Program-made: the position numbers and the translations under genes
Source: Pelagibius litoralis
Lineage (GTDB): Bacteria > Pseudomonadota > Alphaproteobacteria > Kiloniellales > Kiloniellaceae
DNA length: 64,000 bases
NCBI RefSeq assembly: GCF_011683915.1
Contig: NZ_JAAQPH010000010.1
Location: 1 to 64,000 of the forward strand
Reading direction: 5' to 3'
The notes under the pieces: model-generated
The model's database searches: none
What the model saw: only the letters and a program-made list of their open reading frames with translations
Told to the model about the DNA's origin: nothing
In this document: positions 10,206 to 25,237 of the stretch, piece after piece
How positions within the stretch are numbered: the stretch's first letter is position 1
How the letters are laid out: the number at the start of each line of letters is the position of its first letter

Positions 10206-11701
10206 CCCATTCTGAAACCCTCGCCAAAGCTGGCCTGACCGAAGCCGAACTCTCCGGTGGCACACTTGCCGTGCATTCGCCCATCGACGGCGCGGAGGTC
10301 GCGCGCCTCAAGCAAACGGATCCGTTCGACATGCCTGCCATCATCGCAACTTCCCAGGAAGCGTTCCAAATCTGGCGCAGAGTGCCCGCACCGCGACGTG
10401 GGGAACTGGTACGTCTCCTGGGGGAAGAGTTGCGCGCGGCGAAGGACGAACTCGGGGCCCTGGTGACCCTGGAAACGGGCAAGATCACCGCAGAAGGTCT
10501 TGGTGAAGTGCAAGAGATGATCGACATCTGCGACTTCGCCGTCGGTCTGTCGCGGCAGCTTTATGGTCTGACCATCGCCTCGGAACGCCCTGGCCATCGC
10601 ATGACTGAAACCTGGCATCCGATCGGGCCGGTTGGCGTGATTTCGGCCTTTAACTTCCCGGTCGCAGTCTGGAGCTGGAACACGGCGCTGGCACTTGTCT
10701 GCGGCGACCCGGTGATCTGGAAACCCTCGGAAAAGACTCCGCTGACCGCCCTGGCCTGCAAGAAGATTTTTGAAAAGGCGGCGGCAAGGTTTGGCGATGA
10801 TGCGCCCGAGGGGCTGTTGCAGCTGGTGATCGGTGGTGCTGAAGTTGGCGAAGCGCTTGTGGCGTCCAAGGGCGTTCCGGTCATCTCGGCAACCGGTTCG
10901 ACCCGCATGGGTGGTGTTGTCGGTCCGAAGGTGGCGGCCCGTTGGGGGCGGCCGATCCTGGAGCTTGGTGGAAACAATGCGATGATCGTCGCCCCCTCGG
11001 CGGATCTCGATATGGCCGTGCGCGCCATCGTATTTTCGGCAGTGGGCACGGCCGGTCAGCGCTGCACCACACTGCGCCGCCTGATAGTCCACAAGTCGAT
11101 CAAGGCGGAGCTTGTCGAGAAGCTGATCAAAACCTATGCCACCTTGCCCATCGGTGACCCCCGTTCGAAAGGCACCCTGATCGGGCCGCTGATCGATCAG
11201 GGCGCATTGGATGCGATGCAGACATCGCTTGAAGTTGCCAAGGCCGAAGGCGGCACTGTGCATGGCGGGGGCCCGGTAACCGAAGCAGTTCCGGGCGGGG
11301 CCTATGTTGCGCCCGCTTTGGTCGAAATGCCCGGCCAGACCGACATCGTGAAGAAGGAAACCTTCGCGCCGATCCTGTATGTGCTGGAATACGTGGGGCT
11401 GGACGATGCAATTGAGATACAGAACGAAGTGCCGCAGGGCCTGGCATCCTGCATTTTCACGCTGAACGTGCGCGAGGCGGAAACCTTCCTGTCGTCTGTA
11501 GGTTCGGATTGCGGCATCGCCAATGTCAATATTGGCCCGTCCGGTGCCGAAATTGGCGGCGCTTTCGGCGGAGAGAAGGAAACAGGCGGCGGCCGGGAAT
11601 CCGGGTCGGACGCCTGGAAGGGCTACATGCGCCGCCAGACCTCGACGGTGAACTATTCGGCCGAGCTGCCTCTTGCCCAGGGTATCAAGTTCGATGTCTA
11701 G
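10202..11701 (+). CDS. amaB: L-2-aminoadipate-6-semialdehyde (piperideine-6-carboxylate) dehydrogenase, ALDH7 family
   Basis: This 499-aa aldehyde dehydrogenase has the general base about E254 in LELGGNNAM and the nucleophile about C288 in AGQRCTTLRR. The C-terminal block GGEKETGGGRESGSDAWK followed by MRRQTSTVNYS is the signature of antiquitin-like ALDH7 enzymes. These oxidise aminoadipate semialdehyde (in equilibrium with piperideine-6-carboxylate) to 2-aminoadipate. The product feeds the aminotransferase at the start of the operon. The ATG at 10202 overlaps the previous stop as ATGA and is preferred to the frame opening at 10088. The stop codon is part of a dispersed palindromic repeat. 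Confidence 0.92.
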   Translation: MTHSETLAKAGLTEAELSGGTLAVHSPIDGAEVARLKQTDPFDMPAIIATSQEAFQIWRRVPAPRRGELVRLLGEELRAAKDELGALVTLETGKITAEGLGEVQEMIDICDFAVGLSRQLYGLTIASERPGHRMTETWHPIGPVGVISAFNFPVAVWSWNTALALVCGDPVIWKPSEKTPLTALACKKIFEKAAARFGDDAPEGLLQLVIGGAEVGEALVASKGVPVISATGSTRMGGVVGPKVAARWGRPILELGGNNAMIVAPSADLDMAVRAIVFSAVGTAGQRCTTLRRLIVHKSIKAELVEKLIKTYATLPIGDPRSKGTLIGPLIDQGALDAMQTSLEVAKAEGGTVHGGGPVTEAVPGGAYVAPALVEMPGQTDIVKKETFAPILYVLEYVGLDDAIEIQNEVPQGLASCIFTLNVREAETFLSSVGSDCGIANVNIGPSGAEIGGAFGGEKETGGGRESGSDAWKGYMRRQTSTVNYSAELPLAQGIKFDV

Positions 11702-11745
11702 AGCAGATCCCGGTCGGATGGAATCGCCGGAGGCGATCCATCGAC
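11698..11745. repeat. palindromic repeat, copy 2 (right-truncated)
   Basis: These 48 bp match copy 1 at 125 onwards except for one base and stop matching after CCATCGAC, so the right arm is lost. The repeat begins at CTAG, whose TAG is the ALDH stop codon. The remaining internal hairpin (GGCGATCCATC pairing back to GATGGAATCGCC) may act in 3'-end protection or weak termination of the lysine-type operon. Confidence 0.7.
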
Positions 11746-11819
11746 GTTGCAACCGAAGGTGTTGATGACAATATCGGATAAGGTTGGCTGAAAGCACGGA
11801 CGGGGCGAACGGGCTGCGA

Positions 11820-11916
11820 CTGGGTGAAATGCCCCAAAACGGGTTCGGTAGGGACCTTATCAGCTCTGCGTGTCGTACCTAGGATTACCGGAGAACATAC
11901 CATCCGGAGGCTGAAC
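11820..11916 (+). promoter_or_regulatory. conserved leader, copy A
   Basis: It begins with the 20-mer CTGGGTGAAATGCCCCAAAA and ends 97 bp later at the ATG of a short receiver-like ORF. The same block with the same spacing stands before two other receiver-like starts (17919 and 21110). Shared elements in order are the 20-mer, GGTTC, a GGGAC/TTATC block, a TAGG..TT.CCGG block and a GGAGGCT ribosome-binding site. It is probably a common promoter or operator plus 5' leader; sigma-factor class not identified. Confidence 0.65.
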
Positions 11917-12105
11917 ATGGCCGAAATCACGATTGTCGAAGATCAGGGAATTCCCGCCGGCAACATCGCCACAGTGTTGAAAAACATGGGGATCGACACT
12001 GTTCGCGGTGACCGGATCGCTCCAGCCGTCCTGAACGAGATCCACGTCGTCGCGATCGTCAAGGTGAATGCTGCAGCAGCCGTCTCCGATCATGCCGAAG
12101 CCTAG
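11917..12105 (+). CDS. truncated, degenerate response-regulator receiver (62 aa)
   Basis: The protein starts MAEITIVEDQ and continues GNIATVLKNMGI, clearly aligned to residues 1-62 of the receiver in the fusion protein at 21206. It stops at the position just past the phospho-acceptor. The acceptor segment VIADVNL of the intact copy is AIVKVNA here, so Asp52 is replaced by Lys, and the remaining half of the domain is absent. It cannot be phosphorylated normally. Its last codons overlap the start of the MurG-like gene (12092) by 14 nt. It may survive as a translated leader for that gene, or be a gene relic. Confidence 0.55.
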   Translation: MAEITIVEDQGIPAGNIATVLKNMGIDTVRGDRIAPAVLNEIHVVAIVKVNAAAAVSDHAEA

Positions 12106-13090
12106 GACGATCTGGTTCCTTGCGACCTCAAAGAGCGGGTTGGGACACCTGCGCCGCATCTCCAACATTGCGGGTCATATAGCGGAGAGTGACGCGTGTC
12201 CGGCTATCGGTCTTTTGACAAACGCAAGCTTGCCGCCGGGTCTGGATGAGGCGTGTGGGAAGATCTACAGCCATATGACGGTCGCCGAGCGACCCAATAT
12301 GACCGGGCGGCTTGCAGGAGAAAGCGTCACCGCGATCGTTGTCGATACAGCAATTGTCCCGCGCCTTAACAGCCGGGACGAGCCCTTGGTTTTGATCCTG
12401 CGCGAGATGCCGGAGGATCGGGTCGAGGCGTTTCGGCTTCCCGGTGAACGACCTTGGGACCTGGTCATCGTCCCGAACCCTGAGGACCACTGGATGCCGA
12501 AGCTGGGACAGGGCTTTGCCCGAAATGTTGCGACGGTGGGATGGATCTATCGCCGGCCCGCCGCCGTCCCTCGACGGGCGGGTGCTGTGCCCAGGTTGCT
12601 GATCGCCACAGGTGGTGGTGGCAAGGCGGATGAGGCGGCCGTGCTGCGCGGGCAACTCGACACTATCATTGCTTCGCTGCGAACCGGCACAGCTTGTCCG
12701 TTCACGGTGGAGCAGGCACTTGCCACGCGCGCACCTACTCAAGCCCGCTTATGCGGGGCGGACAGAGTGTTCGACCCCGGCACAGCTCTCAATGACTGCT
12801 TTGCCGCGGCGGACATCGTCGTAAGCACCGCCGGATACAACTCCGTGCTGGAACTGGCGATGACGGAAACCCCAACGATGCTGGTTCCTATGGCGCGGTC
12901 AATCGACGACCAGGTGGAACGGGCGAAGGCCTGGGGGCCGCGTGTGGGCTGTTTCCTGGACCCGGCGGTGCCGGAAGCCGCGCTCGAATGGTTGAGACAG
13001 CAGATCGAAGTGCCGGTGCGGCGGCCGCCGGTGGATCTCGGCCCGTCCGGCGGCGCAGAAGCCGCTCGGCGGATTCTCGCACTGCTATGA
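12092..13090 (+). CDS. MurG-like (GT28-type) glycosyltransferase
   Basis: This 332-aa protein has an N-terminal loop TSKSGLGHLRRISNIA, a central glycine run LLIATGGGGKADEA (about 170-185) and a C-terminal donor-site segment AADIVVSTAGYNSVLEL (about 245), the layout of the MurG/GT28 GT-B fold. It is a paralogue of the glycosyltransferase half of the protein at 21206. The likely reaction is transfer of a sugar from a UDP-sugar at the cytoplasmic membrane face; donor and acceptor are unknown. The ATG at 12092 is preferred to one at 12068, which lies deeper in the preceding ORF. Confidence 0.75.
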   Translation: MPKPRTIWFLATSKSGLGHLRRISNIAGHIAESDACPAIGLLTNASLPPGLDEACGKIYSHMTVAERPNMTGRLAGESVTAIVVDTAIVPRLNSRDEPLVLILREMPEDRVEAFRLPGERPWDLVIVPNPEDHWMPKLGQGFARNVATVGWIYRRPAAVPRRAGAVPRLLIATGGGGKADEAAVLRGQLDTIIASLRTGTACPFTVEQALATRAPTQARLCGADRVFDPGTALNDCFAAADIVVSTAGYNSVLELAMTETPTMLVPMARSIDDQVERAKAWGPRVGCFLDPAVPEAALEWLRQQIEVPVRRPPVDLGPSGGAEAARRILALL

Positions 13091-13199
13091 CCAAAGAGCT
13101 GGCGTCTCCGGCCAAAGATGCCGGGTTCCGCGCAACACGGAGGGAATCCCGGACTGCCGGTATCCCGCAGTTCACACTAGCAACAGAAGGGCGGTAGTC

Positions 13200-14210
13200 A
13201 TGGTTGGTGCGATATTGGTGACGGGAGGCGCCGGCTACATCGGCAGCCACGTGGTTCTGACGCTTCTGGAAGCCGGATACCCGGTCGTCGTGCTCGACGA
13301 CCTCTCGACAGGCCGGCGCGCCGCCGTGCCGAAGGCCGCGCGCTTCGTCAAAGGAGATGTCGGCGACCGCGCTCTGCTTTCACAGATTCTTGGCCAGCAT
13401 GCCGTCACCAACGTCATGCATTTCGCCGGAGCGATTGTCGTGCCGGAATCCGTCGTCGACCCGCTGAAGTACTATCTTCAGAACACCGGCAAGAGCCGCA
13501 ACCTGATCCAAGCCTGCATCGAAGCGGCGGTCAGCGGCTTCATCTTTTCCTCAACGGCGGCGGTCTACGGCCAGGGCGATGGGGCACCGGTTTCGGAAAC
13601 GGCCCCGGCCCAGCCCGCCAGTCCCTACGGCACCTCAAAGCTGATGACCGAGTGGATGCTCCGCGACGTCGCCCGGGCCCACGGCCTGAACACGGCCGTG
13701 CTTCGCTACTTCAATGTGGCCGGTGCAGACCCCAAGGGACGCAGCGGCCAAAGCACACCCGGCGCGACCCACCTGATCAAAGTCGCCTGTGAGACGGCCT
13801 GTGGCCGGCGCCCCTCCATGAAGATCTTCGGCACCGACTACGACACGCCGGACGGCACCTGTATCCGCGATTACATTCATGTCACGGATCTGGCGGACGC
13901 CCACCTTGCCTGCCTGCAGGCGCTCGAGAACCAAGGCGGCCAGTTCCTGTTCAATTGCGGCTATGGTCACGGCTATTCGGTGAAACAGGTCCTGGAAGCC
14001 GTCGAGCGGGTCTCCGGCCGGAAACTGAAGACCCGTCAGGCAGAGCGGCGGCCCGGAGACGTGGCCAGGATCGTCGCCGACGTTTCGGCGATCCGCCGTC
14101 AGCTCGCTTGGCGGCCCCGCTGCAACGATCTGGACCTGATCGTGAAGACCGCCCTCGCCTGGGAGCGAAAGCTGGTTGCGGAGAGTGAGCAGGTTGTTGA
14201 AGAAGCTTGA
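13200..14210 (+). CDS. galE: UDP-glucose 4-epimerase
   Basis: This 336-aa extended SDR protein has the NAD-binding GGAGYIGSH at residues 8-16. The catalytic Ser/Thr cluster is FSSTAAVYG (about 117-125), and Tyr-Lys are in SPYGTSKLM (about 145). CIRDYIHVTDLADAH and the C-terminal RPGDVARIVAD are typical of GalE. It interconverts UDP-glucose and UDP-galactose (or the N-acetyl forms). Lying among glycosyltransferases, it probably supplies a galactose-type donor for the glycan made by this cluster. It starts 109 bp after the MurG-like gene. Confidence 0.93.
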   Translation: MVGAILVTGGAGYIGSHVVLTLLEAGYPVVVLDDLSTGRRAAVPKAARFVKGDVGDRALLSQILGQHAVTNVMHFAGAIVVPESVVDPLKYYLQNTGKSRNLIQACIEAAVSGFIFSSTAAVYGQGDGAPVSETAPAQPASPYGTSKLMTEWMLRDVARAHGLNTAVLRYFNVAGADPKGRSGQSTPGATHLIKVACETACGRRPSMKIFGTDYDTPDGTCIRDYIHVTDLADAHLACLQALENQGGQFLFNCGYGHGYSVKQVLEAVERVSGRKLKTRQAERRPGDVARIVADVSAIRRQLAWRPRCNDLDLIVKTALAWERKLVAESEQVVEEA

Positions 14211-14278
14211 AGCCGCGTGATGTCTTGTGTGGTTCACTGTCCGTGGTTCAGGCCCGAGGCAAGGAGTGTGCAGATCGG

Positions 14279-15019
14279 ATGAGCGCTCCCACGATGAAAG
14301 AGCGGACCTGGCGAGGCGGCGCGCGGTTCTACAAGCGCGTCAACGGCCCTGCGGAAGCCAGGTGCCTGATTGGCCGCGCACATCAGATCACCGAGGCAGG
14401 AGCGCTCACGCCAGAGCCCGAATACTGCCCGGATCGAAACGTCTTGACCTTTCCGGTCATAGACGGTCCTTCCGGCACAACGTTGATCGACGCTGTCGCG
14501 TTGTCGGAGCTGTTAGCGCCATTGCAGGTTGTTCGTCGTGCCAACATGCCGGATCTACCGGTCTTCGACCCCTTTGCCAAGATTGCCGCACGACTGAAGC
14601 CGGACGCGCCGCATTGGCTGATCGACCGTGTTGCGCGGCTGCAAGGCGTGGACGCCGGCCCTGCCGGTATTGTTCATGGCGATTTCCACTGCGGCCAGTT
14701 GATCCGGGATTGCGGGGGCCGTGTCTGGATCATTGACCTGGAAGACATGTCCCAGGGGCCGGTCGAGGCGGACCTGGGTAATTTCGCGGCACATCTGGCG
14801 ACGCACCCCGAGACAGGGTGGCGGGATTTGGCGGAAGGGGTTCAGTTCTGGGCCGGACGGGTTCAGGACGCCTGGAATAGGTTGGGAAAACCTTGCGACG
14901 CCGCGCTTTTCCGACGTCATGTCGATGTTGCGCTGACGCGCAGGGCACTGAAGCTACGCCACGACCGGGCAGAGCCCGAGGTCCTGGCAGCGCTGAAGAG
15001 CTTACCGGTGATTTCTTGA
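14279..15019 (+). CDS. aminoglycoside-phosphotransferase-fold kinase (first of three)
   Basis: This ~246-aa protein has the APH/choline-kinase catalytic loop IVHGDFHCGQLI (about residue 130, base Asp in HGDFH) and the metal-binding Asp in WIIDLEDMSQGP about 20 residues later. Its N-lobe is short. The family transfers phosphate from ATP to a hydroxyl of a small molecule or sugar. In a glycan cluster, phosphorylation of a sugar or lipid-linked intermediate is plausible. An upstream in-frame ATG at 14207 would overlap the galE stop; 14279 was chosen because the extra 24 residues look non-homologous. The last 18 bp overlap the convergent response-regulator gene. Confidence 0.72.
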   Translation: MSAPTMKERTWRGGARFYKRVNGPAEARCLIGRAHQITEAGALTPEPEYCPDRNVLTFPVIDGPSGTTLIDAVALSELLAPLQVVRRANMPDLPVFDPFAKIAARLKPDAPHWLIDRVARLQGVDAGPAGIVHGDFHCGQLIRDCGGRVWIIDLEDMSQGPVEADLGNFAAHLATHPETGWRDLAEGVQFWAGRVQDAWNRLGKPCDAALFRRHVDVALTRRALKLRHDRAEPEVLAALKSLPVIS

Positions 15020-16276
15020 CAGGCCGAACTTCGACATTCGGTAGCGCAACGTATCGCGGGTAATGCCCAGAAGATCTGCGGCTTTTGAAACGTTACCCTC
15101 AGTGTACTGAAGCGCTGATTGAAGGGCGGAGCATTCGATCTGCTGGAGATCGAGGTCGGGCTTTGCCCGATTCAGCGCCGACACCCCGGTCAGATATTGA
15201 ATGTCGCCAACGTCGATCCTGCGATCTCCCGCCTTGAGCACGGCACGCCGCAAGCAGTTCCGAAGTTCCATAATGTTGCCCAGCCAGGGATAAGATAGAA
15301 GTTTTTTCCGCGCCTTGGGGGTGAAACGCGGCTTGGGATATCCGTGTTTACGTGCGACCTCGCGGGTCAGCACCGCGGCAATCGGCAGGATATCCTCGCT
15401 GCGTTCGCGGAGTGCCGGAACGTCGACCCAGCCTGTCTGAATGCGATAAAGCAGATCGGCGCTAAACGCACCCGACCGGATCAGCGGGCTGAGAGCGTCA
15501 CTCGACGTGGCAAGGACCCACACATCGTCGGCCAGCCCGGATTCAAGCGCATAAAGCAGCCCGGCCTGGGCCGCGCCATCAAGGGCAGCGATGTTCTTCA
15601 GCAGCAAGGTTCCACCCCGCGCCTTTTCCAGCATTGGGCTCCACGGACTGCATGCCGACCCGTCTTCCGTGGCACTCGAAAACGAAGCAGCACAGTCGGA
15701 CACGACGAACGGCGCTTTGCGGCGCGGGCTTTCCTCGTGCAGGGCGGCGGCAACCTTGGCCTTTGCCAAGCCCTGCTCTCCGGAAATCAGAACACTCGGT
15801 GGTTTCTCGATACCGGATGCAGCGGCAAGTCTCTTAATCGACTGCCTAAGATCGATCGCAGCGTCGGACCTGCCGATGATCCGCCCAATCCCTTTTGAAG
15901 GCTCCGTGACACTGCATTGGTTGCCCACCAGTTCTGCTGCCATCATGGCGATGGTGGCCAGCGGCGCCGGCTTGGTCAGAAAATCCCGTGCGCCGCGTTT
16001 CATGGCCTCAACTGCGACCGCGATGTCCCCATGACCAGACATTACCACGACCTGCGCTTCCGGGTTTTCTTCCCGAATCCGGCATAGAACCTCCAAACCG
16101 CACTCACGCCCGAGCCTGTAATCAACAATGGTGAGCGTCGGCCGCTCTCGCTGGAAAAGCGCGAGTCCGAAACGAGCATCAATCGCGCGGTGGCAGGAAA
16201 ACCCGCGCCTTTCCAGATAGCTCGCAATAGACCGTCCGAGGACCTCATCGTCATCGATGACCAGCAGCTGTGTCAT
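15002..16276 (-). CDS. NtrC-like response regulator with degenerate AAA+ domain
   Basis: This ~424-aa protein has three domains: receiver with acceptor about D52 (TIVDYRLG), MSGHGD and FLTKP; an AAA+ sigma-54-activator-like domain (about 130-360); and a Fis-type helix-turn-helix at the C-terminus (NVSKAADLLGITRDTLRYRM). The Walker A position reads GEQGLAKAK instead of GESGTGKE, and I find no GAFTGA loop. It therefore probably cannot hydrolyse ATP normally or engage sigma-54, and may act as a plain DNA-binding regulator. Its ATG overlaps the kinase stop as ATGA. The three repeated leaders nearby are candidate targets. Confidence 0.85.
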   Translation of the reverse strand: MTQLLVIDDDEVLGRSIASYLERRGFSCHRAIDARFGLALFQRERPTLTIVDYRLGRECGLEVLCRIREENPEAQVVVMSGHGDIAVAVEAMKRGARDFLTKPAPLATIAMMAAELVGNQCSVTEPSKGIGRIIGRSDAAIDLRQSIKRLAAASGIEKPPSVLISGEQGLAKAKVAAALHEESPRRKAPFVVSDCAASFSSATEDGSACSPWSPMLEKARGGTLLLKNIAALDGAAQAGLLYALESGLADDVWVLATSSDALSPLIRSGAFSADLLYRIQTGWVDVPALRERSEDILPIAAVLTREVARKHGYPKPRFTPKARKKLLSYPWLGNIMELRNCLRRAVLKAGDRRIDVGDIQYLTGVSALNRAKPDLDLQQIECSALQSALQYTEGNVSKAADLLGITRDTLRYRMSKFGLSRNHR

Positions 16277-17736
16277 GACAAGGTGTCGCAGGTTGGGATC
16301 GTGCACATAACCTCCACGCCTCGCCTTTTCCGGTTACGCAGCTCGAGCGATCCACCAAGCCGCTCCACAATCCCCCGTGCAAGGACAAGGCCAATGCCGA
16401 GGCCGGTCGATTTTCCGCTTTCGAACGGGCTGAAGAGCCGCCGGACCATCTCCCCTGGGATGCCGGGGCCATTGTCTTCGATGAGGATGCAGACCTGACC
16501 GTCAGACTGGATATCCCGCGAGATCTTGATCTTTCCGCCGGCCTGCATCGCCTCGATGCTGTTGGACAGGATGGAGTTCAAAACCTGTTCCACCTCGCTC
16601 GACTGGGCAACGACGCAGGGACTACGGCCCCGGTAGGCGAACTCCGCAACGATGCCGCGGTCTCGCATCTGAGATAGGAAGTTCTCAAGGCATTTTCCGA
16701 TGACCTGATCCACATCGGTGTTGCCGACACCCCCCACCGGATCCTCGAGAGCGCGTGTCAGGAAGGAGCGTATCCAACTTTCCAGCCTCTCGGACTGCTC
16801 GACAATGTCTGAGACCGGGCCGCGTGCGCTGGCGGGCAGGTCGTCGTCAAGGACCAGTTCGGCACAGGATCGGATCGCAGCCAACGGATTACGCAGGCCG
16901 TGGGCGACGGAAGACGCCATTTCACCCACGACGGCCAGCCTCTCCCTCTCAATCAATCTTGCCTCGTGACGCTGCAGTACCCGGGTGGTGTAGATGACTA
17001 CAAGCAGAAGGCCGCAGAACAGCACTGCCCCCGCCACGGCCTCGCTGGCCCAGGCCAGGTGGGTCACCCGGCCTATCGACCCGAGCAGGGTCTCTGGAAC
17101 TTTCCGGATCTCGACGGCGCCAACGATACTGGTATCGTCACTGGACCAGATCGGAATTGCAAACGTCACGAACGATGTTGCGCTGGGGGGAATGGCCGAG
17201 AGGCCGTGGCGATCTGCCTGCGGCAGAGGCCGAATTTCCGGATTCAACGTACCGCTCAGCGCTCCGGCCAGTTGGTCGTTTTCCTGGACACCCGCGCTGT
17301 TGAGCGTTCCATCGGTAGACCAGATCATGGAACCGTCCGCGCGATAGATGGTCGCCAGATAGACGTCCGGAAGATGTTGGAGATACCGTAGGATCACCGC
17401 CATTTCAGGTGTATCAGCGCCTTGGGAATCTTCGTGAAAACCACGTTCGGCACCCTCGGCACGAACCAGCGCGTTAAGCGACTCCGTCGCCTCGACGGCG
17501 TCCTGAAATGGCATCTGCCGGGTGAGATAGCTTGATAAAAAAAACCCGAGCGTGGCCGTCGTAGCGACAATTACAAGAAAGCTGAGGATCGCAAAACGCC
17601 GCACAAGCCGTATGTGATGCGATGAGCCCTGCCGCCTTGGGTTTCGTGCCACAAAGGCAAATCCAGGTTGCCTGGATTGACGTTGCCATCGGCCAACCGC
17701 AGGCAAGGGCCGGTCTTCTCCATTCGCTTGATACAT
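16273..17736 (-). CDS. membrane sensor histidine kinase
   Basis: Translated from the ATG at 17736 it is ~487 aa. A first membrane segment, FAILSFLVIVATTATLGFFL, is followed by a ~170-residue extracytoplasmic sensor region and a second segment around AGAVLFCGLLLVVIYTT. The kinase core has H-box SSVAHGLRNPLAAI, N-box LSNSIEAM, G1 EDNGPGIP and G2 GLGIGLVLARGI. It should autophosphorylate on the H-box His and phosphorylate the adjacent regulator. The extracellular signal is unknown. A longer frame opens at 17871 but its extra 45 residues are Arg-rich and unlikely. Its promoter gap is shared with leader copy B. Confidence 0.88.
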   Translation of the reverse strand: MYQANGEDRPLPAVGRWQRQSRQPGFAFVARNPRRQGSSHHIRLVRRFAILSFLVIVATTATLGFFLSSYLTRQMPFQDAVEATESLNALVRAEGAERGFHEDSQGADTPEMAVILRYLQHLPDVYLATIYRADGSMIWSTDGTLNSAGVQENDQLAGALSGTLNPEIRPLPQADRHGLSAIPPSATSFVTFAIPIWSSDDTSIVGAVEIRKVPETLLGSIGRVTHLAWASEAVAGAVLFCGLLLVVIYTTRVLQRHEARLIERERLAVVGEMASSVAHGLRNPLAAIRSCAELVLDDDLPASARGPVSDIVEQSERLESWIRSFLTRALEDPVGGVGNTDVDQVIGKCLENFLSQMRDRGIVAEFAYRGRSPCVVAQSSEVEQVLNSILSNSIEAMQAGGKIKISRDIQSDGQVCILIEDNGPGIPGEMVRRLFSPFESGKSTGLGIGLVLARGIVERLGGSLELRNRKRRGVEVMCTIPTCDTLS

Positions 17737-17918
17737 CCCAATCGGCCTCCGCGTTTTGCCGCACTCGCTGGGCTCCACCGTCTGAAGTGGCGCGTGCCGG
17801 CGGCAACACCTCCGTCTCCGATACCATCGCCGATCAGCCCGGGGAGGGCTTGACTGGGCGATTAACGACAAGTGACAGAAAAGTGAATTTTTAATGAAAT
17901 CCGGTCACCCGGGCCCGA

Positions 17919-18014
17919 CTGGGTGAAATGCCCCAAAAGGGTTCCTTCGAGGACTTATCGGCCCTGCGCGTCGTGCTTAGGCTTGCCGGCAATTCTTCAA
18001 TCGGAAGGCTGGTT
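17919..18014 (+). promoter_or_regulatory. conserved leader, copy B
   Basis: The same 20-mer opening as copies A and C is followed by GGTTCCTTCG, GGACTTATCGG and TAGGCTTGCCGGCA. A GGAAGGCT ribosome-binding site comes before the ATG at 18015, a spacing of 96 bp. It lies in the divergent gap with the histidine kinase gene, so it could also serve that promoter. Confidence 0.65.
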
Positions 18015-18116
18015 ATGACCCAGGTCATGATTATCAAAGACGAAGAGACCCTGGTCCACACCATCGCCAAGGCCTTGGCGCGGTTTTGCCCGCCAGCCCC
18101 GCGTGAAGCCACATGA
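18015..18116 (+). CDS. receiver-domain fragment acting as possible leader ORF (33 aa)
   Basis: The peptide starts MTQVMIIKDEETLVHTIAKA, matching the first ~22 residues of the receiver at 21206 (MTQVLIVEDEEILARNIATA), then diverges into CPPAPREAT and stops. It lacks the phospho-acceptor, so it is not a working receiver. Its TGA overlaps the ATG of the next gene as ATGA, an arrangement that suits translational coupling. Either it is a duplication scar or it has been kept as a translated leader for the phosphotransferase. Confidence 0.5.
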   Translation: MTQVMIIKDEETLVHTIAKALARFCPPAPREAT

Positions 18117-19516
18117 CCAAATCGGCCTTTCCCCACGATGCCACGATGCCCGGCATGTCTCTGGCTGTCGACCCATCGACGATGCAGGCGATATTCGCTG
18201 CCGAGCTGCTGCAGAGGAACGGGACCGCATACAAGATCGACGGATGCCGCCTCTTGCGCATCCGCTACCGACCGGCTGAACACTGTTTCGTGCACTACGA
18301 ACTCGACTTACGCTCAGCGAAATCCGGGCAGCGCACGGCGGTCTGGCTGACCGGCATTATCTATCCGGATGAGCGCCCACGCCGCCGCCTGAAAAAGCTT
18401 CTCGCCGCTTGCGAGGGAGAACCGATATCCGATGGCTGGCACGCGTTCGGCCCGGCCTTTTATCTGCCGGCGCCGCATATGCTTGTGCAGACCTTCCCCT
18501 GCGACCGGCGCTTGCCGGGCTTACCCCATATCGTTTCGGGTGCGGCGGCGGACCTCGAACCCGAACTCGCCAGGGCGCTGGGTCCCGGTGATTGGGAAAC
18601 AGCCGTGCGCAGCATCCAGCCGGTGCGGTATCGGGCCTTGTCTGGCGCCGTTCTGCGCTTCTCCATCGAGGCTACAGAGCGCAAAACTGGCGAGCGCAAG
18701 ACAAAGACGCCTTATGTCAAGGTCAGTCGCAATGGCGAGGGTGAACGCGAGGCCCGCTTGCTTGAGACGCTGCATTCGCAGGCTCAAGCGACGAACCAGC
18801 CGTTCACGGTCACCAGACCTCTCGCATACATTGACAGTTTGTCCGCCCTCATCGTCGAGGAGGCGCCCGGCGACTCCTTCGAACAGGCTGTCCTCAACGG
18901 GATCGACGTGGAAGGCTCGGCGCGCCGAACCGCGCGCGGCCTGGCCGCGCTCCATCAATGGACCGTAACGCCGCCGGCCGCCACCAATGCGGTGATCGCC
19001 AGAGCGCTGGTGGCCGCCGAGTACGTTGGCTGGGCCTGCCCGATGCTGGCCGACGAGGCGCAGGCAATCGTCTGCGCTGCGGAAGCGGCACTGGCGCGTA
19101 CGGCGCTTGGCCCAACCCATCTCGACCTCAAGCCCGACCATGTCTTCCTCGACGGTGAACGCGTCGTATTCATAGATCTCAACACCTTCGGGGCCGCCGA
19201 TCCGGTACTCGACATAGCGACGCTGCTGGCACGCTTGGCAGCCATGCCCGCCCGCTTCGGCGCAGCGCCCGCACATGTCGAAACGGCGGCGCGCGCCCTC
19301 ACCGAGGAGTATTTCGCTCGGGTACCGGCGGATTGGCGGCTGCGGCTCGATATAAACCATGCCGTAGCCGCAATGCAGGTCGCGTCGGAGTTTTTCCGCC
19401 ATCAGCACCCGGATTGGCGCGAGCTGGTCCCAGCCTGGATCGCGCAGGCACGGCATGCCGCTGCCGCTGCCCCGCTTGGTTTGGCGATTCAGAACAAAGC
19501 GAACCAAAGGAGTTGA
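18113..19516 (+). CDS. aminoglycoside-phosphotransferase-fold kinase (second of three)
   Basis: This 467-aa protein carries an APH-type catalytic loop THLDLKPDHVFL (about residue 335) and a metal-binding Asp in VFIDLNTFGAADPVLD. The N-terminal ~170 residues form an extra region with its own possible small fold (RLLRIRYRPAEHCFVHYEL). The large N-terminal part and the lost HGD form (HLD here) set it apart from drug-resistance kinases. The substrate is unknown; a carbohydrate or lipid head group is likely given the neighbours. Translation is coupled to the receiver fragment before it. Confidence 0.72.
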   Translation: MTKSAFPHDATMPGMSLAVDPSTMQAIFAAELLQRNGTAYKIDGCRLLRIRYRPAEHCFVHYELDLRSAKSGQRTAVWLTGIIYPDERPRRRLKKLLAACEGEPISDGWHAFGPAFYLPAPHMLVQTFPCDRRLPGLPHIVSGAAADLEPELARALGPGDWETAVRSIQPVRYRALSGAVLRFSIEATERKTGERKTKTPYVKVSRNGEGEREARLLETLHSQAQATNQPFTVTRPLAYIDSLSALIVEEAPGDSFEQAVLNGIDVEGSARRTARGLAALHQWTVTPPAATNAVIARALVAAEYVGWACPMLADEAQAIVCAAEAALARTALGPTHLDLKPDHVFLDGERVVFIDLNTFGAADPVLDIATLLARLAAMPARFGAAPAHVETAARALTEEYFARVPADWRLRLDINHAVAAMQVASEFFRHQHPDWRELVPAWIAQARHAAAAAPLGLAIQNKANQRS

Positions 19517-19532
19517 AACTTTGCGCCGTGTG

Positions 19533-20978
19533 ATGTTGCCGCGCTCTTGCGGCGCGCCGCCGCGCACCGGCTGCAGGCTACCTCGTCTATCCGCCCAACC
19601 AGGACTGCTTTGGGCCGCCACAGGAAGCCGTCGCCCTATACGGCCCGGTCATACCCGGGCGCTTCTGTTGTGCCTCTTTGGCGCCACGGCGCTTCTCGCC
19701 GCACAGCGGGTCGCTGAGTCCGAGCCGCTCGCTGAGATTCCCTCAGAGGGTCCCAACGGCGCCGCGGTACAGTTCGATTTCGATGATCCGCCAGACACCA
19801 AGAACCGGCTGACGCAAGATCTGACATTCGGCGGCAAGGTCACCCTCGGCTTCGATTATGAGCAGGATTACGACCTCGACAGGGATGAGGACGACGATCT
19901 CGCGACCTGGGCGCCGGAACTTGAGGTCGCTTTTTCCTATGACCCCTATCCTTGGTTCCGCGGATTCTTGAACCTCGAAGTAAAAAGGGAATTCCAGATA
20001 GAAGAGCCGGATGGGCGAGCGCCGCAAGAGACGGAGTTTCTGGTTAAAGAAGCCTTCTTGAACTTCCGGGAGATATTGCCGGGAGTATCGATGACGCTCG
20101 GCCGGCAGGAATTCAAGGACGAGCGTGAGTGGCTCTATGACGAGGACCTGGATGCTGTCCGGCTGTTCTTGCGGTATTCCGATTTTGGTCTCGAGGTGTC
20201 TGTCAGCCGCGAAGAACTGGTCGACAAAGATCTCTTCAACGACACATCCGCGGACGAAATCAACAACTACTTTCTTTTTGGGCGCTACGCTCTCGGAGAT
20301 GACTCCGAGCTCAGCCCTTACCTGTTCTTCCGGGACGACCGTACCAGCAGCGATGAGGACCTGATCTTCATAGGCCTGAGCTCGAGCGGCGAACTGACAT
20401 CGGATATCGACTACTGGGTGCAGGCCGCTCACGTGCGCGGCAGCGAAGACGGCACCGATGTCAGTGGATACGGGTTCGATATTGGCGCAACCTACACCTT
20501 GGACGCATCGTGGGAGCCGTCTCTGACCCTTGGTACAGCTTTCGGCAGCGGTGACAACGACCCGGACGACACGGACCGGAACTTCCGCCAGACCGGCCTG
20601 CAGGACAACAACGATCGCTTCAACGGCGTTACAAGCGTCAAGTACTATGGCGAGGTTTTGGATCCGGAACTCAGCAACCTGTTCGTCCTGACCGCCGGCC
20701 TGGGTATTCGCCCAACCAAGCGAAGCTCAATCGACCTCATTTATCACCACTATCGGCAACATCAGGCATCAGACGAACTTCGCGATGTTTCGATCGATGC
20801 CGATCCCGATGGTCAGGACCGGACATTGGGTAACGCATTGGATCTCGTTGTCGGCTATCGCGAAATCGAGAACTTCAATGCAGAGGCGGTCTTTGGCTTG
20901 TTCGCGCCGGGGGCGGCCTTTTCGAACGATGCAAGCACGGCATATTTCGTCGGTATCGAGCTGGAGATTAGTTTTTGA
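19533..20978 (+). CDS. alginate-export-like outer-membrane beta-barrel protein
   Basis: This ~481-aa protein has a long basic N-terminal region with a hydrophobic stretch ALLLCLFGATALLAAQ, then an acidic, Asp-rich mature part. Alternating aromatic strand motifs (TFGGKVTLGFDYEQDYDL, GVSMTLGRQEF) and a terminal strand ending FVGIELEISF with C-terminal Phe are typical of outer-membrane barrels. The closest family I recognise is the AlgE/alginate-export porin group. It would let the glycan, or an anionic polymer, cross the outer membrane. An AGGAG lies 8 nt before a TTG at 19521, so the true start may be that TTG; the GTG at 19530 and ATG at 19533 follow. Confidence 0.72.
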   Translation: MLPRSCGAPPRTGCRLPRLSAQPGLLWAATGSRRPIRPGHTRALLLCLFGATALLAAQRVAESEPLAEIPSEGPNGAAVQFDFDDPPDTKNRLTQDLTFGGKVTLGFDYEQDYDLDRDEDDDLATWAPELEVAFSYDPYPWFRGFLNLEVKREFQIEEPDGRAPQETEFLVKEAFLNFREILPGVSMTLGRQEFKDEREWLYDEDLDAVRLFLRYSDFGLEVSVSREELVDKDLFNDTSADEINNYFLFGRYALGDDSELSPYLFFRDDRTSSDEDLIFIGLSSSGELTSDIDYWVQAAHVRGSEDGTDVSGYGFDIGATYTLDASWEPSLTLGTAFGSGDNDPDDTDRNFRQTGLQDNNDRFNGVTSVKYYGEVLDPELSNLFVLTAGLGIRPTKRSSIDLIYHHYRQHQASDELRDVSIDADPDGQDRTLGNALDLVVGYREIENFNAEAVFGLFAPGAAFSNDASTAYFVGIELEISF

Positions 20979-21021
20979 TTGCCCGTCTCCCCAAAGATCG
21001 CACTGCAGGCGGAGCCCCGGG

Positions 21022-21117
21022 ATGAGCTGGGTTTTCGCAGCCTCAAAAAGCGAACCCGAGCACTTGCGGTTCCTATCCAATACAGCGCGCCAAGTGGAAG
21101 CGGCCGCGGCTGGGTGA
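21022..21117 (+). pseudogene. relic of a MurG-like glycosyltransferase N-terminus (31 codons)
   Basis: The frame MSWVFAASKSEPEHLRFLSN aligns with IWFLATSKSGLGHLRRISNI at the start of the glycosyltransferase at 12092, and the nucleotide sequences match over about 60 bp (compare 21020-21080 with 12102-12162). It ends at a TGA that lies inside the conserved leader copy C. It is therefore a truncated duplicate of that gene, left directly before the third leader. Confidence 0.6.
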
Positions 21118-21205
21118 AATGCCCCAAAACAGGTTCCTTCGGGGACTTATCGCTTCAGCACATTGTCCATAGGCTTGCCGGCAGCATTGGCACCGGAGGC
21201 TTTGA
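21110..21205 (+). promoter_or_regulatory. conserved leader, copy C
   Basis: This is the copy before the only intact receiver. It opens with the shared 20-mer, continues AGGTTCCTTCGGGGACTTAT and TAGGCTTGCCGGCA, and ends with CCGGAGGCTTTGA just before the ATG at 21206 (96 bp). Here CCCC and GGGG at about 21122-21143 could pair as a small hairpin, which copies A and B preserve less well. Confidence 0.68.
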
Positions 21206-22783
21206 ATGACCCAGGTCCTGATTGTCGAGGACGAAGAGATCCTGGCCCGCAACATCGCCACGGCCTTAAGGCGTGCGGGCGTCGAGGTGGCCGTCGCCGG
21301 ATCGTGCTCGGCGGCGCGCTCCGAGATCGCAAGCAGCCCGCCCGACCTTGTTATCGCAGATGTCAACCTGGGCGACGGCGACGGCATCGATCTGCTCGCC
21401 GATTGGCGGCAGGATCATCCGGATGTTCCGGTGGTTGTTATGACGGGACAGGACAGCCTGTCGAACCGCCTGCGGGCGGAGCGGCTCGATGCGACTGCAT
21501 TCTTGTCCAAACCTTTCGCCATGAGACGACTGCGGGAACTCATCCTGATTCTTCTGGCTGAAGGCAATCCGGGCCTGGGTCCGGGAATTCGCGGCCCGTC
21601 GGTGATGATGTACTCCCACGACACCATCGGCCTCGGTCATATGCGCCGCAACGCCTCCATCGCATCCGCGTTGATTGAACGGTTTCCCAACGCCTCGGTC
21701 CTGATGATGGTGGGCTGTCCCGCCGGTATGGTGTTCGAGCTGAAACCCGGCATCGACTTCGTAAAGCTCCCTTCACTTACCAAACTCGGGCGCAACCAAT
21801 GGCGACCGAGCAGCCTGCGGGTTTCTCCGGACACGACACGGTCCATACGCATGGGAATACTGGAGCGCGCAGCCGAAGCGTTCCGACCCGACATTCTACT
21901 GGTCGACCACGAACCAGCGGGTGTCTGGGAAGAACTGGTTCCGACACTCAAGGCGATCCGTCTTCGCGGTGGCGCGTCGGTGATCCTGGGTCTCCGCGAC
22001 ATCCTCGACGATCCGAAACGCACGCGTGCGCTCTGGGACAAGCAAGGCACTGCACAGGTTGTTCGCGACCTCTATGACGGCGTTTTCGTTTATGGCGACC
22101 AGAGAGTCTTCCCCTCTTCGGACCACTACGGGCTGGAAATGCTACAACCTGACAACGTCACCTACTGCGGCTACGTCACCACCGCCCATCGGGGTTCGAA
22201 CCGGGACCGCAAGAACGCGATACCGCGCCGCATTCTCGTCTCCGGCGGTGGCGGGCGCGATGCCTATCCGGTCTTGAGCGCATCGCTTGAGGCTCTTGCC
22301 TGCATACACCCTGAAAGACGGCCCGAGATGACCTTGATCGCCGGGCCGCTGATGGATGAGGAGTTGCGTGCGCCTTTGTCAGCAAGGGCAAAGCAGCTGG
22401 ATGCGGAGTTTCTGGACAGCACGTCCGACATGCCCGCGTTGCTGGATGCTGCCGACCTACTGGTCACCATGGGCGGTTACAACTCCGTGACCGAAGCCAT
22501 TGCCGCTTGCTGTCCAACCATCGTCATCCCCCGGATCGGCCCATCGAGCGAGCAGCGCCTGAGAGCCGAGTGTCTGGAGAGGTTCGGTCTTGTTGAAACG
22601 GTATCCCAGGAGGCGCTGGATCCAGAGGTCCTGGCCAAGCGCTTTCGCCGATACGACGGGTCACGGACACCCATGATCGAAGTGCCCCTTAATGGCGCCG
22701 TCATGGCAGCGAACTTGATCGCCGAGCGCCTGGCGACCATTCGGCCTGACACACCTAAAGACGCGAGAAGCGCCCATGGTTGA
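21206..22783 (+). CDS. response-regulator receiver fused to a MurG-like glycosyltransferase
   Basis: This 525-aa protein has an intact receiver at residues 1-115 (acid pair E8/D9, acceptor D52 in VIADVNL, T80 in VMTGQDS, K102 in FLSKPF). It is joined to a GT-B glycosyltransferase of the MurG/GT28 type (about 130-515): IGLGHMRRNASIAS, VSGGGGRDA, then AADLLVTMGGYNSVTEA. The phosphorylation machinery is complete, so the enzyme could be switched directly by a histidine kinase, probably the one at 16273. It is the first gene of an unbroken run of overlapping genes to 28268. Donor and acceptor sugars are unknown. Confidence 0.82.
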   Translation: MTQVLIVEDEEILARNIATALRRAGVEVAVAGSCSAARSEIASSPPDLVIADVNLGDGDGIDLLADWRQDHPDVPVVVMTGQDSLSNRLRAERLDATAFLSKPFAMRRLRELILILLAEGNPGLGPGIRGPSVMMYSHDTIGLGHMRRNASIASALIERFPNASVLMMVGCPAGMVFELKPGIDFVKLPSLTKLGRNQWRPSSLRVSPDTTRSIRMGILERAAEAFRPDILLVDHEPAGVWEELVPTLKAIRLRGGASVILGLRDILDDPKRTRALWDKQGTAQVVRDLYDGVFVYGDQRVFPSSDHYGLEMLQPDNVTYCGYVTTAHRGSNRDRKNAIPRRILVSGGGGRDAYPVLSASLEALACIHPERRPEMTLIAGPLMDEELRAPLSARAKQLDAEFLDSTSDMPALLDAADLLVTMGGYNSVTEAIAACCPTIVIPRIGPSSEQRLRAECLERFGLVETVSQEALDPEVLAKRFRRYDGSRTPMIEVPLNGAVMAANLIAERLATIRPDTPKDARSAHG

Positions 22784-24053
22784 GACCGCACCCCTGCGCA
22801 TCGGCTACGTCCTGAAACGCTTCCCCCGGCTCAGCGAAACCTTCATCCTGAATGAAATTCTTGCGCTTGAGCGGGCCGGAGTCGAGGTGGAGATATTCTC
22901 TCTGCTCCGTCCACCCGCCGAGGACCGGCACGCCCTGTTGAGCGAACTGAAGGCGCCGGTCACTTATCTTCCGTCCAAAGCTTCCGCCGCCCGCCTTACA
23001 CTGAAAACAGGTCTGGAAGCGGAGAGAGCCAGCTTCGCTGATGTCTTTGACGATCTCGTCACGCATCCGCCGCTCTTCTCCGGCAAGTCGCCCGAGGACG
23101 TGGCGGTACTCCATCTCAAAGCGAGCGTCCTCGCCTTTCTCGCCCATCGGCGCGGCATCAGACACTTTCACGCGCACTTCGGCTCCGATGCGGCGACGGC
23201 TGCCTTGTTGCTGAGCCGGCTGACTGGGGGCAGCTTTTCCTACACCGCACATGCGCGCGATATCTATCACACCTATACCTCACCGCTGGATGATGCCCGC
23301 ATGCGCCGCGCGAAGATGGCGGAGGCGCGGTTCCTGGTGACGGTGTCGGACTACAACGCAGAGCATCTGCGAAGCCTTTGCCCCAATGCCGCCCAACGAA
23401 TTCACCGGCTCTACAATGGGATCGACCTGACGCGGTTTGTGGCGAACGAAACCATGCGGCAACCTGGCCGGATCATCTCGGTCGGCCGCTTCATAGAGAA
23501 GAAGGGTTTCCCGATCCTGATCGAGGCCTGCCGTATTCTGCGGGATCGCGGTCAGCTTTTCGACTGTCTGATCCTGGGTGATGGCCCGCTGCGTACGCAG
23601 CTGGAAGCCCAGATAGACCGGCTCGGGCTCACCGATGTTGTTCGGCTTGGTGGCTCACTTCCCCAGGAGCGGCTGATCGCCGAAATGCAGACCGGCGCGG
23701 TTGTGACCCTGCCCTGCATCGTGAGCGAAAGCGGCGATCGCGACGGACTGCCAACGGTTTTGCTGGAAGCCATGGCGCTTGGCCTGCCGGTGGTCACAAC
23801 GACCGTCTCCGGCGGACCGGAGATCGTGGTCGAGAGTGAGACCGGTCACCTCTGCCCACCGGGAAACCCGGCTGCGCTTGCGGCGGCGCTGGAAAGCCTG
23901 CTCGTCAATCCGCTCCGCGCGGCGCAGATGGGCGCGGCTGGGCGCGGCCGCGCCGAGCGCCTGTTCGATCTGGAGAGGAATGTAGCGTCACTCCGCGTCC
24001 TATTCGAGAACGCGCAGGGTGGCACGGCAAGAATAGCAGAGGTCGGATCATGA
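22776..24053 (+). CDS. GT4-family glycosyltransferase
   Basis: This 425-aa GT-B enzyme opens with LKRFPRLSETFILNEI, typical of colanic-acid-type GT4 transferases. A mid-protein HFHAHFGSDAATAAL and donor-domain blocks ISVGRFIEKKGFPILIEA, LGDGPLRTQLEA and GLPTVLLEAMALGLPVVTT (Glu of the EX7E motif) follow. It transfers a sugar from a nucleotide-sugar donor to a growing glycan on the cytoplasmic side. It overlaps the fusion gene by 8 nt and the next glycosyltransferase by 4 nt, so all are co-translated. Confidence 0.88.
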   Translation: MVETAPLRIGYVLKRFPRLSETFILNEILALERAGVEVEIFSLLRPPAEDRHALLSELKAPVTYLPSKASAARLTLKTGLEAERASFADVFDDLVTHPPLFSGKSPEDVAVLHLKASVLAFLAHRRGIRHFHAHFGSDAATAALLLSRLTGGSFSYTAHARDIYHTYTSPLDDARMRRAKMAEARFLVTVSDYNAEHLRSLCPNAAQRIHRLYNGIDLTRFVANETMRQPGRIISVGRFIEKKGFPILIEACRILRDRGQLFDCLILGDGPLRTQLEAQIDRLGLTDVVRLGGSLPQERLIAEMQTGAVVTLPCIVSESGDRDGLPTVLLEAMALGLPVVTTTVSGGPEIVVESETGHLCPPGNPAALAAALESLLVNPLRAAQMGAAGRGRAERLFDLERNVASLRVLFENAQGGTARIAEVGS

Positions 24054-25237
24054 GACTTGTCTATGTCAACGCCGACAATGGTATCCCGGTCTTCGGCAAT
24101 AAAGGGGCGTCGGTCCATATCCAAGAGATGGCGCGGGCGCTTACATCGCTCGACTGCGAGCTGCGCATTCTGACAGCGCGCAAGGGTTCCGCCCCGACAG
24201 GGGGTCTTGCCGAACTGGTCGAAGCCGTAGAGGGACCGGATCGCGTCAGCACGCTGACCGGCCGGGACGAGAAGGAGCGGCTTTATGTCGAAACCGCCCA
24301 TCAGATCGAGACGCGCCTGATCGCACTCCACAAATTCTGGCCTTTCGACTTGATATACGAACGCTATTCGCTTTGGTCATCCGCGGGCGTGCGCGCCGCG
24401 CGCCGCCTGGGCATCACTTGCATAATCGAGGTCAACGCCCCGCTGGTCGAAGAGCAGGCGGCGTACCGCAAACTCGCGCTGGATGAAATTGCACGGGGAA
24501 TCGAAGCAGAGGTCTTCGCCAAGGCCGATGCATTGATGGTCGTCTCCAGGCCCTTGGCGGACTACGTCCACGGGCGGGGCGCCGCACCTCAGCGCGTTCA
24601 TGTAACCGGCAACGCGGTCGACGGCACGCGTTTTCATCCCGGCGTCGTGCCGGCCGACGTACCTGACATTCCCAAGGATGCCTTCGTCCTTGGCTTCTCC
24701 GGATCCTTGAAGCGCTGGCATGGCGTCGATGTTCTGATGACGGCCTTCCGGAACCTGAAGTCACGCATGCCCGAGGCGCACCTGCTGATCGTCGGCGACG
24801 GGCCGAAGCATGGTTGGATCGAGGGATTTGCTCAAGGAGCGGATCTGATGGACTCGGTCACGATGACGGGCTGGCAGCCGCATGCGGCGCTTCCGGGTCT
24901 GATCGCGCGCATGGATGTCGCGACCGCACCCTATCCGCAAAGCGACAACCACTATTTCTCTCCCCTGAAGCTCTTTGAATACATGGCCGTGGGCCGACCG
25001 ATCATTGCAAGCCGCATCGGGCAAACGGCGGAGGTAATCGCCGATGGCCGGAACGGTGTGCTGGTGCCGCCCGGCGACGCGGATGCACTGGCCGAAGCGG
25101 TCATGATTCTGCGCTGTGAACCGGACATCGCCCGACGCCTCGCCGCCGCTGCTGCGGAAGAGGGCAGGAAACATGACTGGAAGCGGAACGCGCGTGCCGT
25201 TCTGGACACAGCCCGGGGCGCTCGGAAGGTCGCCTGA
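24050..25237 (+). CDS. GT4-family glycosyltransferase
   Basis: This 395-aa GT-B enzyme has an N-terminal acceptor domain with GNKGASVHIQEMARAL. The donor domain has LGFSGSLKRWHGVDVLM (about 205), LLIVGDGPKHGWIE and a C-terminal SPLKLFEYMAVGRPIIAS with the conserved Glu of the EX7E motif. It probably adds the next sugar after the preceding GT4 enzyme. Its stop shares one base with the ATG of the ABC exporter, supporting a single operon for polymer synthesis and export. Confidence 0.88.
   Translation: MRLVYVNADNGIPVFGNKGASVHIQEMARALTSLDCELRILTARKGSAPTGGLAELVEAVEGPDRVSTLTGRDEKERLYVETAHQIETRLIALHKFWPFDLIYERYSLWSSAGVRAARRLGITCIIEVNAPLVEEQAAYRKLALDEIARGIEAEVFAKADALMVVSRPLADYVHGRGAAPQRVHVTGNAVDGTRFHPGVVPADVPDIPKDAFVLGFSGSLKRWHGVDVLMTAFRNLKSRMPEAHLLIVGDGPKHGWIEGFAQGADLMDSVTMTGWQPHAALPGLIARMDVATAPYPQSDNHYFSPLKLFEYMAVGRPIIASRIGQTAEVIADGRNGVLVPPGDADALAEAVMILRCEPDIARRLAAAAAEEGRKHDWKRNARAVLDTARGARKVA

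Follow-up and report, generated by a model that had tools for sequence, protein, structure and literature searches.

A conserved 16-bp dyad marks a probable operator-promoter in a leader found three times in a glycosyltransferase cluster of Pelagibius litoralis

A 64,000-nucleotide stretch of the Pelagibius litoralis genome (contig NZ_JAAQPH010000010.1, positions 1 to 64,000; hereafter the window) carries a polysaccharide-type gene cluster in which one leader occurs three times, each time at a nearly fixed distance ahead of a start codon. Comparison of related sequences indicates that a 16-bp dyad in this leader is a real, conserved operator, and that the leader is very probably a promoter as well. 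We propose, with a probability of roughly 0.7, that the leader is the operator-promoter of this one cluster, that it is bound by the NtrC-like regulator encoded there, and that it was copied to keep three gene units under one switch.

The original prediction described the same block at three places, opening with a 20-mer and ending at an ATG that begins a receiver-like sequence. The 20-mer, CTGGGTGAAATGCCCCAAAA, is indeed present in exact copies at 11820, 17919 and 21110, and ATG codons lie 97, 96 and 96 bp downstream of these, at 11917, 18015 and 21206. With up to three mismatches allowed, the window contains three matches, compared with 0.02 expected, a number reached in 0 of 100 shuffles. 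The whole 6.03-Mb genome, searched in the same manner, contains four, namely the three leaders and one match on C29 that has three mismatches and lies within mechanically listed open reading frames (ORFs; ≥100 aa). The core of the 20-mer is the 16-bp dyad TGGGTGAAATGCCCCA, with the consensus TGGGGcAwwTgCCCCA across genomes. The shared block is longer than had been described: blastn pieces among the copies (126–168 bp; 78% identity for copy 2 and copy 3, 70–74% for the remaining pairs) comprise the leader and continue past the ATG into about the first 20 receiver codons. All three copies thus open a receiver sequence as predicted, with an intact receiver only behind copy 3.

The cluster is composed of three units, GT1-GalE-APHa (unit 1), APHb-porin (unit 2) and RecGT-GT4-GT4-ABC-APHc-DUF1194 (unit 3), and the kinase and NtrC-like regulator genes lie on the opposite strand, between units 1 and 2. 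The features are as follows.

11821–11836, no strand: operator dyad copy 1 (TGGGTGAAATGCCCCA), exact; among the top three sites of the 64 kb with a matrix built from Rhodobacteraceae only (21.8, next 11.9).
11857–11885, plus: putative promoter copy 1, TTATCA, 17 bp, TAGGAT; −10-like element 42–43 bp past the dyad end.
11917–12105, plus: truncated, diverged receiver ORF of 62 aa, from translation and alignment; overlaps the probable GT1 start ATG at 12092.
12068–13090, plus: GT1, MurG-like GT28-type glycosyltransferase (PF04101; score against TIGR01133 far under the model cut-off); listed ORF, homology beginning near 12092; first large gene of unit 1.
13200–14210, plus: GalE-type UDP-glucose 4-epimerase (TIGR01179, above cut-off).
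14207–15019, plus: APHa, APH-family kinase-like protein (PF01636).
15002–16276, minus: NtrC-like response regulator, the proposed binder, from Pfam models, alignment to NtrC1 and an eight-member alignment.
16273–17871, minus: histidine kinase, partner of the regulator (PF00512, PF02518, synteny); listed ORF, true start probably farther downstream.
17920–17935, no strand: operator dyad copy 2, exact, in the putatively ancestral kinase-divergent position; found with the Rhodobacteraceae-only matrix.
17955–17983, plus: putative promoter copy 2, TTATCG, 17 bp, TAGGCT, from the leader alignment.
18015–18116, plus: truncated receiver ORF of 33 aa, its TGA overlapping the APHb ATG as ATGA (18113–18116).
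18113–19516, plus: APHb, APH-family kinase-like protein (PF01636), first large gene of unit 2.
19455–20978, plus: alginate-export-type outer-membrane protein, the porin (PF13372); listed ORF, true start probably farther downstream.
21111–21126, no strand: operator dyad copy 3, exact, ahead of intact RecGT; found with the Rhodobacteraceae-only matrix.
21147–21175, plus: putative promoter copy 3, TTATCG, 17 bp, TAGGCT, from the leader alignment.
21206–22783, plus: RecGT, a receiver domain fused to a GT28-type glycosyltransferase, 525 aa (PF00072, PF04101; orthologues in relatives).
22776–28268, plus: remainder of unit 3, two GT4-type glycosyltransferases, an MsbA-type ABC exporter and APHc, from domain models and synteny.
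28365–29300, plus: DUF1194 protein (PF06707), kept in the clusters of G010 and G015.

The dyad is found upstream of RecGT in all 10 genomes that hold RecGT together with the kinase/regulator pair. These belong to two families, Kiloniellaceae (G000, which is the window genome, G010 and G015) and Rhodobacteraceae (G441, G545, G658, G513, G771 and G463, which were found first, and G885, found later); G762, in which RecGT matched only in part, is left out of the 10. Symmetry of the dyad varies from 4 to 8 paired positions of 8. A matrix trained on nine RecGT-upstream sites, with G885 held out, gives 18 matches of at least 18 bits in 212,551 bp, the next best being 14.8, and all 18 fall in the three window leaders, in kinase/RecGT intergenic regions or upstream of GT1. 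Of these, nine had gone into the training and two more are the identical copies in the window, which leaves as independent five sites upstream of GT1, one near the kinase gene of locus L125 and, in L126, a further RecGT site. In the held-out genome the best match is a perfect dyad before RecGT (24.4), the second (14.2) lies 23 bp further on, and the rest score 7.7 or less. Furthermore, the matrices transfer between families: the Rhodobacteraceae-only matrix ranks the three leader sites of the window first, and the Kiloniellaceae-only matrix places RecGT and GT1 sites on top in five of six Rhodobacteraceae loci, the exception being L125, where a third site, close to the kinase gene, scores slightly higher.

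Specifically, a strong GT1 site is present in all five GT1-holding Rhodobacteraceae loci of the RecGT-matrix scan, which amounts to 5/8 of the other GT1-holding genomes overall, and the surrounding leader is not common to these Rhodobacteraceae sites. Because a matrix made from RecGT sites alone finds independent strong GT1 sites in five of eight other genomes, we take the dyad to be the operator of the cluster and not just a scar of duplication. In several lineages, then, a conserved inverted repeat stands in non-coding DNA before functionally linked operons, and the presence of the dyad in two families, and before a second operon without shared leader or receiver flanks, supports the common control element that had been suggested. 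Conservation in relatives reaches beyond coding similarity, the comparison on which that suggestion had been staked in advance. As to the other blocks then listed as shared, the −10-like element at the place of TAGG is partly kept across the families along with the dyad, GGTTC is present in the three window copies and absent from that place in G010 and G015, and CTTA[TC]C occurs in 5/5 Kiloniellaceae leaders with none seen at that place in 12 Rhodobacteraceae sites.

Downstream of the dyad, the Kiloniellaceae leaders have TTA[TC]C[AG], a 17-bp spacer and TAGG[CA]T, so positioned that the −10-like element lies 42–43 bp past the dyad. Taking TAGG[CA]T as the −10 element would place the dyad centre at about −63. 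An offset of 42–43 is likewise favoured for a −10-like hexamer in Rhodobacteraceae: at seven sites with a single dyad, the hexamer fits best at offset 42 of 51, and an equal fit at any offset is reached in 39/1000 shuffles.

Several results weigh against the operator-promoter reading. The dyad-promoter spacing appears clear in Kiloniellaceae and only modest in Rhodobacteraceae. When one of two near-alike sites is dropped from the seven, 100/1000 shuffles reach the peak, and GT1 sites alone give 200/1000 over all offsets. With 12 Rhodobacteraceae sites the peak is reached in 0/1000 shuffles, a figure that is partly circular because at five of the seven RecGT promoters the proximal dyad or half-site, usually the weaker one, was used after its spacing had been seen to fit; the strong dyad of those five lies 23 bp further upstream and gives a peak at offset 64–65 (3/1000). 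No −35 element is common to Kiloniellaceae and Rhodobacteraceae, the −35 part being shared within Kiloniellaceae only. None of the leaders was picked up in a generic scan for promoters (one match, compared with 2.1 expected), as expected of a weak activator-dependent promoter and fitting equally well the absence of a promoter. GT1 lacks a strong site in three of the eight other loci; in G010 and G015 it comes after a porin gene, and in G885 the position where a site is expected has only a weak one, scoring 6.7. Finally, a looser form of the pattern gives 21 matches per strand in the window genome compared with 3 for a reversed control, and a few of these sites score up to 19.3, inside the range of the accepted sites.

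Among the shared cluster genes, the NtrC-like gene is the only one in which our domain scans find a DNA-binding domain. Its product consists of a receiver, an AAA domain and a Fis-type helix-turn-helix (PF00072, PF00158/PF14532 and PF02954), the make-up of the NtrC family, and the helix-turn-helix core GI[TS]RDTLRYR[MI] is kept, nearly identical, in 8/8 aligned orthologues. Gene linkage and the type of DNA-binding domain make this adjacent regulator the likely binder of the dyad and our best candidate. The GAFTGA loop is absent in the alignment to NtrC1 (4l4u, 1ny5), and no such motif is present in the eight aligned orthologues. The Walker B acidic pair is also lost, LFLDEI being replaced by LLLKNI in the window protein, with no DE at that place in the other seven. 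Because the regulator has lost the sigma54 contact loop, it would be expected to act on sigma70 polymerase. In the available text of PMC10274813, GAFTGA-less NtrC proteins of Rhodobacter capsulatus and Caulobacter are described as working at sigma70 promoters, by a mechanism that is called unclear for Caulobacter NtrC.

We thus propose that the NtrC-like regulator, phosphorylated by the adjacent kinase, binds the 16-bp dyad and, from a position centred at about −63, would activate rather than repress a weak sigma70-like promoter. The original site would have stood between the kinase gene and RecGT. In the presumed order of events, the cluster was then split, and a module made up of the operator, the promoter, the ribosome-binding site and the first codons of RecGT would have been copied ahead of GT1 and APHb, by which the three units would be kept under one switch. 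The gene order of relatives is consistent with such an origin. In G010 and G015, of the same family and another genus, the stretches read contain a single leader, located between the divergent kinase gene and RecGT; APHb there ends the series of shared genes downstream of RecGT, and GT1-APHa comes after the porin gene. In the window it is copy 2 that occupies the kinase-divergent position, and its flank resembles by eye the kinase-RecGT intergenic region of G010 and G015. Copy 2 is therefore probably the ancestral site, with copy 3 having moved with the intact operon and copy 1 having been added before GT1.

The copied 5′ receiver ends survive as short ORFs, each running over the start codon of the gene behind it, and would probably couple translation. 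The gene arrangement points to spread of the operator in this genome by copying of the leader and first RecGT codons ahead of GT1 and APHb. A fuller account, which we offer tentatively and hold at somewhat less than even odds, is that a promoter-plus-start cassette was copied after the operon split, that the truncated receiver ORFs now serve as starters setting translation of the two displaced genes, and that the regulon was rebuilt in this way.

The original prediction named a simple footprint of duplication as its alternative, and for this genome duplication did take place, as the copies carry along 5′ receiver codons. The stronger claim, that copies 1 and 2 are nothing but scars of a copied RecGT 5′ end without a selected regulatory role, would account for the homology reaching into receiver codons and for the truncated receivers that these copies open. 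We regard it as distinctly unlikely, since leaders with only 68–75% identity to one another carry an unchanged 20-mer and the dyad recurs before GT1 in Rhodobacteraceae without a shared surrounding leader. The dyad could instead be the operator of another regulator, such as a global repressor or a nucleoid protein. The assignment to the NtrC-like protein comes from linkage, and further one-mismatch palindromes exist in the genomes, so that this possibility keeps some credit, although we judge it unlikely: the exact pattern is confined to the three leaders in the window genome and to the cluster plus one and two other places in G010 and G015, respectively, the dyad accompanies the kinase/regulator pair in 10/10 genomes, and the dyad is missing from L149, a distant cluster whose 13.7 kb examined contain no regulator match.

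Two further readings concern the kind of element. An RNA leader (riboswitch, attenuator or RNA thermometer) would fit the near-fixed leader length ahead of start codons, and 6 of 40 predicted consensus pairs in five leaders have changed on both sides with pairing kept. We nevertheless find it highly improbable: 11500–21600 matches no Rfam family at E values up to 1, covariation contributes unfavourably to the consensus fold of these five leaders (+1.6 kcal/mol), and the predicted transcription start is downstream of the best-conserved part. A sigma54 (−24/−12) promoter would suit a regulator of the NtrC family, but the 20-mer does not fit the −24/−12 consensus and the protein, aligned to NtrC1, has neither GAFTGA nor the Walker B acids, making this reading extremely improbable. 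An origin of the leaders from a dispersed repeat or mobile element was considered and rejected, because what the copies share is leader and receiver codons, and no additional copies of the 20-mer exist in the genome.

The operator-promoter reading has parallels in known systems. At class I activator promoters, CRP binds at about −61, similar to a dyad about 63 bp before the predicted start of a weak sigma70-like promoter; the protein family is different, and activation in the present case is a prediction. PrsR is a sigma54-type regulator, whereas the window regulator has no sigma54 contact loop; its score against the PrsR-type model TIGR02915 is 176.5, under the cut-off of 502.6. The available text on PrsK/PrsR describes a pairing like the present one, in which kinase and NtrC-family regulator genes accompany an exopolysaccharide-type or PEP-CTERM cluster (PMC1569441, PMC9850573), one PEP-CTERM gene being called RpoN-dependent (PMC9850573). 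The GAFTGA-less NtrC of R. capsulatus and Caulobacter, as far as the available text goes, shares the NtrC family, the missing GAFTGA, a kinase partner, the alphaproteobacterial host and proposed sigma70-type targets (PMC10274813). In contrast to those proteins, the window regulator is local to a glycosyltransferase cluster and not to nitrogen, its proposed site is TGGGGcAwwTgCCCCA at about −63, and it has lost the Walker B pair, of which Caulobacter NtrC needs its conserved residue (PMC10274813, available text). A literature search by titles and abstract starts recovered nothing recognised as this operator or cluster.

For NtrC-family regulators whose sigma54 contact has been lost, the window would supply a concrete operator in the form of a 16-bp dyad and a −10-like element placed at a favoured distance from it. 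It would also offer a readable case of a regulon kept together after operon rearrangement, with one promoter-and-start cassette ahead of each fragment and the scars still visible. Furthermore, it defines a patchy glycosyltransferase/exporter cluster with a dedicated kinase/regulator pair and a receiver-glycosyltransferase fusion. This fusion suggests that a single kinase may govern transcription as well as the activity of the enzyme. Two GT4-type transferases, an MsbA-type exporter, GalE and an alginate-export-type porin suggest that the cluster product is an exported or surface polysaccharide or glycolipid. The best models for the GT4-type transferases are EpsE-like and PEP-CTERM stp3-like, both under cut-off, as is the MsbA-type exporter model.

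RecGT is found in 3/23 genomes of the family at E ≤ 1e-60 and in 3/61 of the order at E ≤ 1e-80, and in 0/7 genomes of the same genus at E ≤ 1e-60. At E ≤ 1e-80 it occurs in at least 2/385 genomes of the class and in at least 6/394 and at least 4/390 in two draws around G441, with up to three candidates scored per genome among the matches listed. None of 266 plasmid records at E ≤ 1e-30 covers 80% of the RecGT query. Among the matches listed in a further search, 79 loci were kept, of which L030 (on a G015 contig) and L031 are full RecGT matches; in the remaining 77 the match ends by about residue 161, and these were dropped. Given the absence of RecGT at this threshold (E ≤ 1e-60) from all seven genomes of the genus, the cluster appears patchy and has possibly moved horizontally.

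Some loci show variants of the arrangement. L149 (G762) represents a distant version of the cluster, with RecGT matches in two separate places, two GT4-type matches and one ABC match; no matching kinase or regulator is present within the 13.7 kb read. In L126 (G771) and L127 (G463), RecGT is broken by stop codons and the dyad is retained. L125 contains, at 11243–11258, a perfect dyad with 8 of 8 pairs, TGGGGCATATGCCCCA, close to the kinase gene. Roughly 1 kb separates it from the RecGT site, and a TATAAT follows 10 bp past the dyad; autoregulation of the kinase/regulator pair is possible. Before RecGT in L123, L124, L125, L126 and L148, the strong dyad is followed 23 bp downstream, at a distance of about two turns of the helix, by a second dyad or half-site; this spacing suggests cooperative binding of two dimers. 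DUF1194 has more matches elsewhere in the window genome, on C11, C22, C33 and C61.

Dyad-like sequences also occur outside the clusters. In 8/8 genomes (G000 and seven relatives), the degenerate palindrome with up to one mismatch outnumbers its reversed control by a factor of about 3 to 38. The window genome has 18 one-mismatch sites, of which 17 were scored, at 11.7–19.3, the highest being C30:15362 (19.3) and C62:223504 (19.2). Fifteen of the 17 lie within mechanically found ORFs of at least 120 aa, and the eighteenth site, on C29, lies within ORFs of at least 100 aa. Further regulon members in this genome were rejected on this location, which is weak evidence because such ORFs are common in GC-rich DNA.

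A dispersed palindromic repeat beginning with GATCCCGGTCGGATGGAATCGCCGG, different in sequence from the leader, is present at 11698–11753, just upstream of copy 1, and at 125–172. It has 59 matches in the genome at up to three mismatches, compared with 0 for the reversed-pattern control. Three of the four printed copies seem to end in inverted arms of the TAGAGCAGAT/ATCTGCTCTA type, the copy upstream of leader 1 looks truncated, and the repeat appears to be like a repetitive extragenic palindrome (REP) or a miniature inverted-repeat transposable element (MITE).

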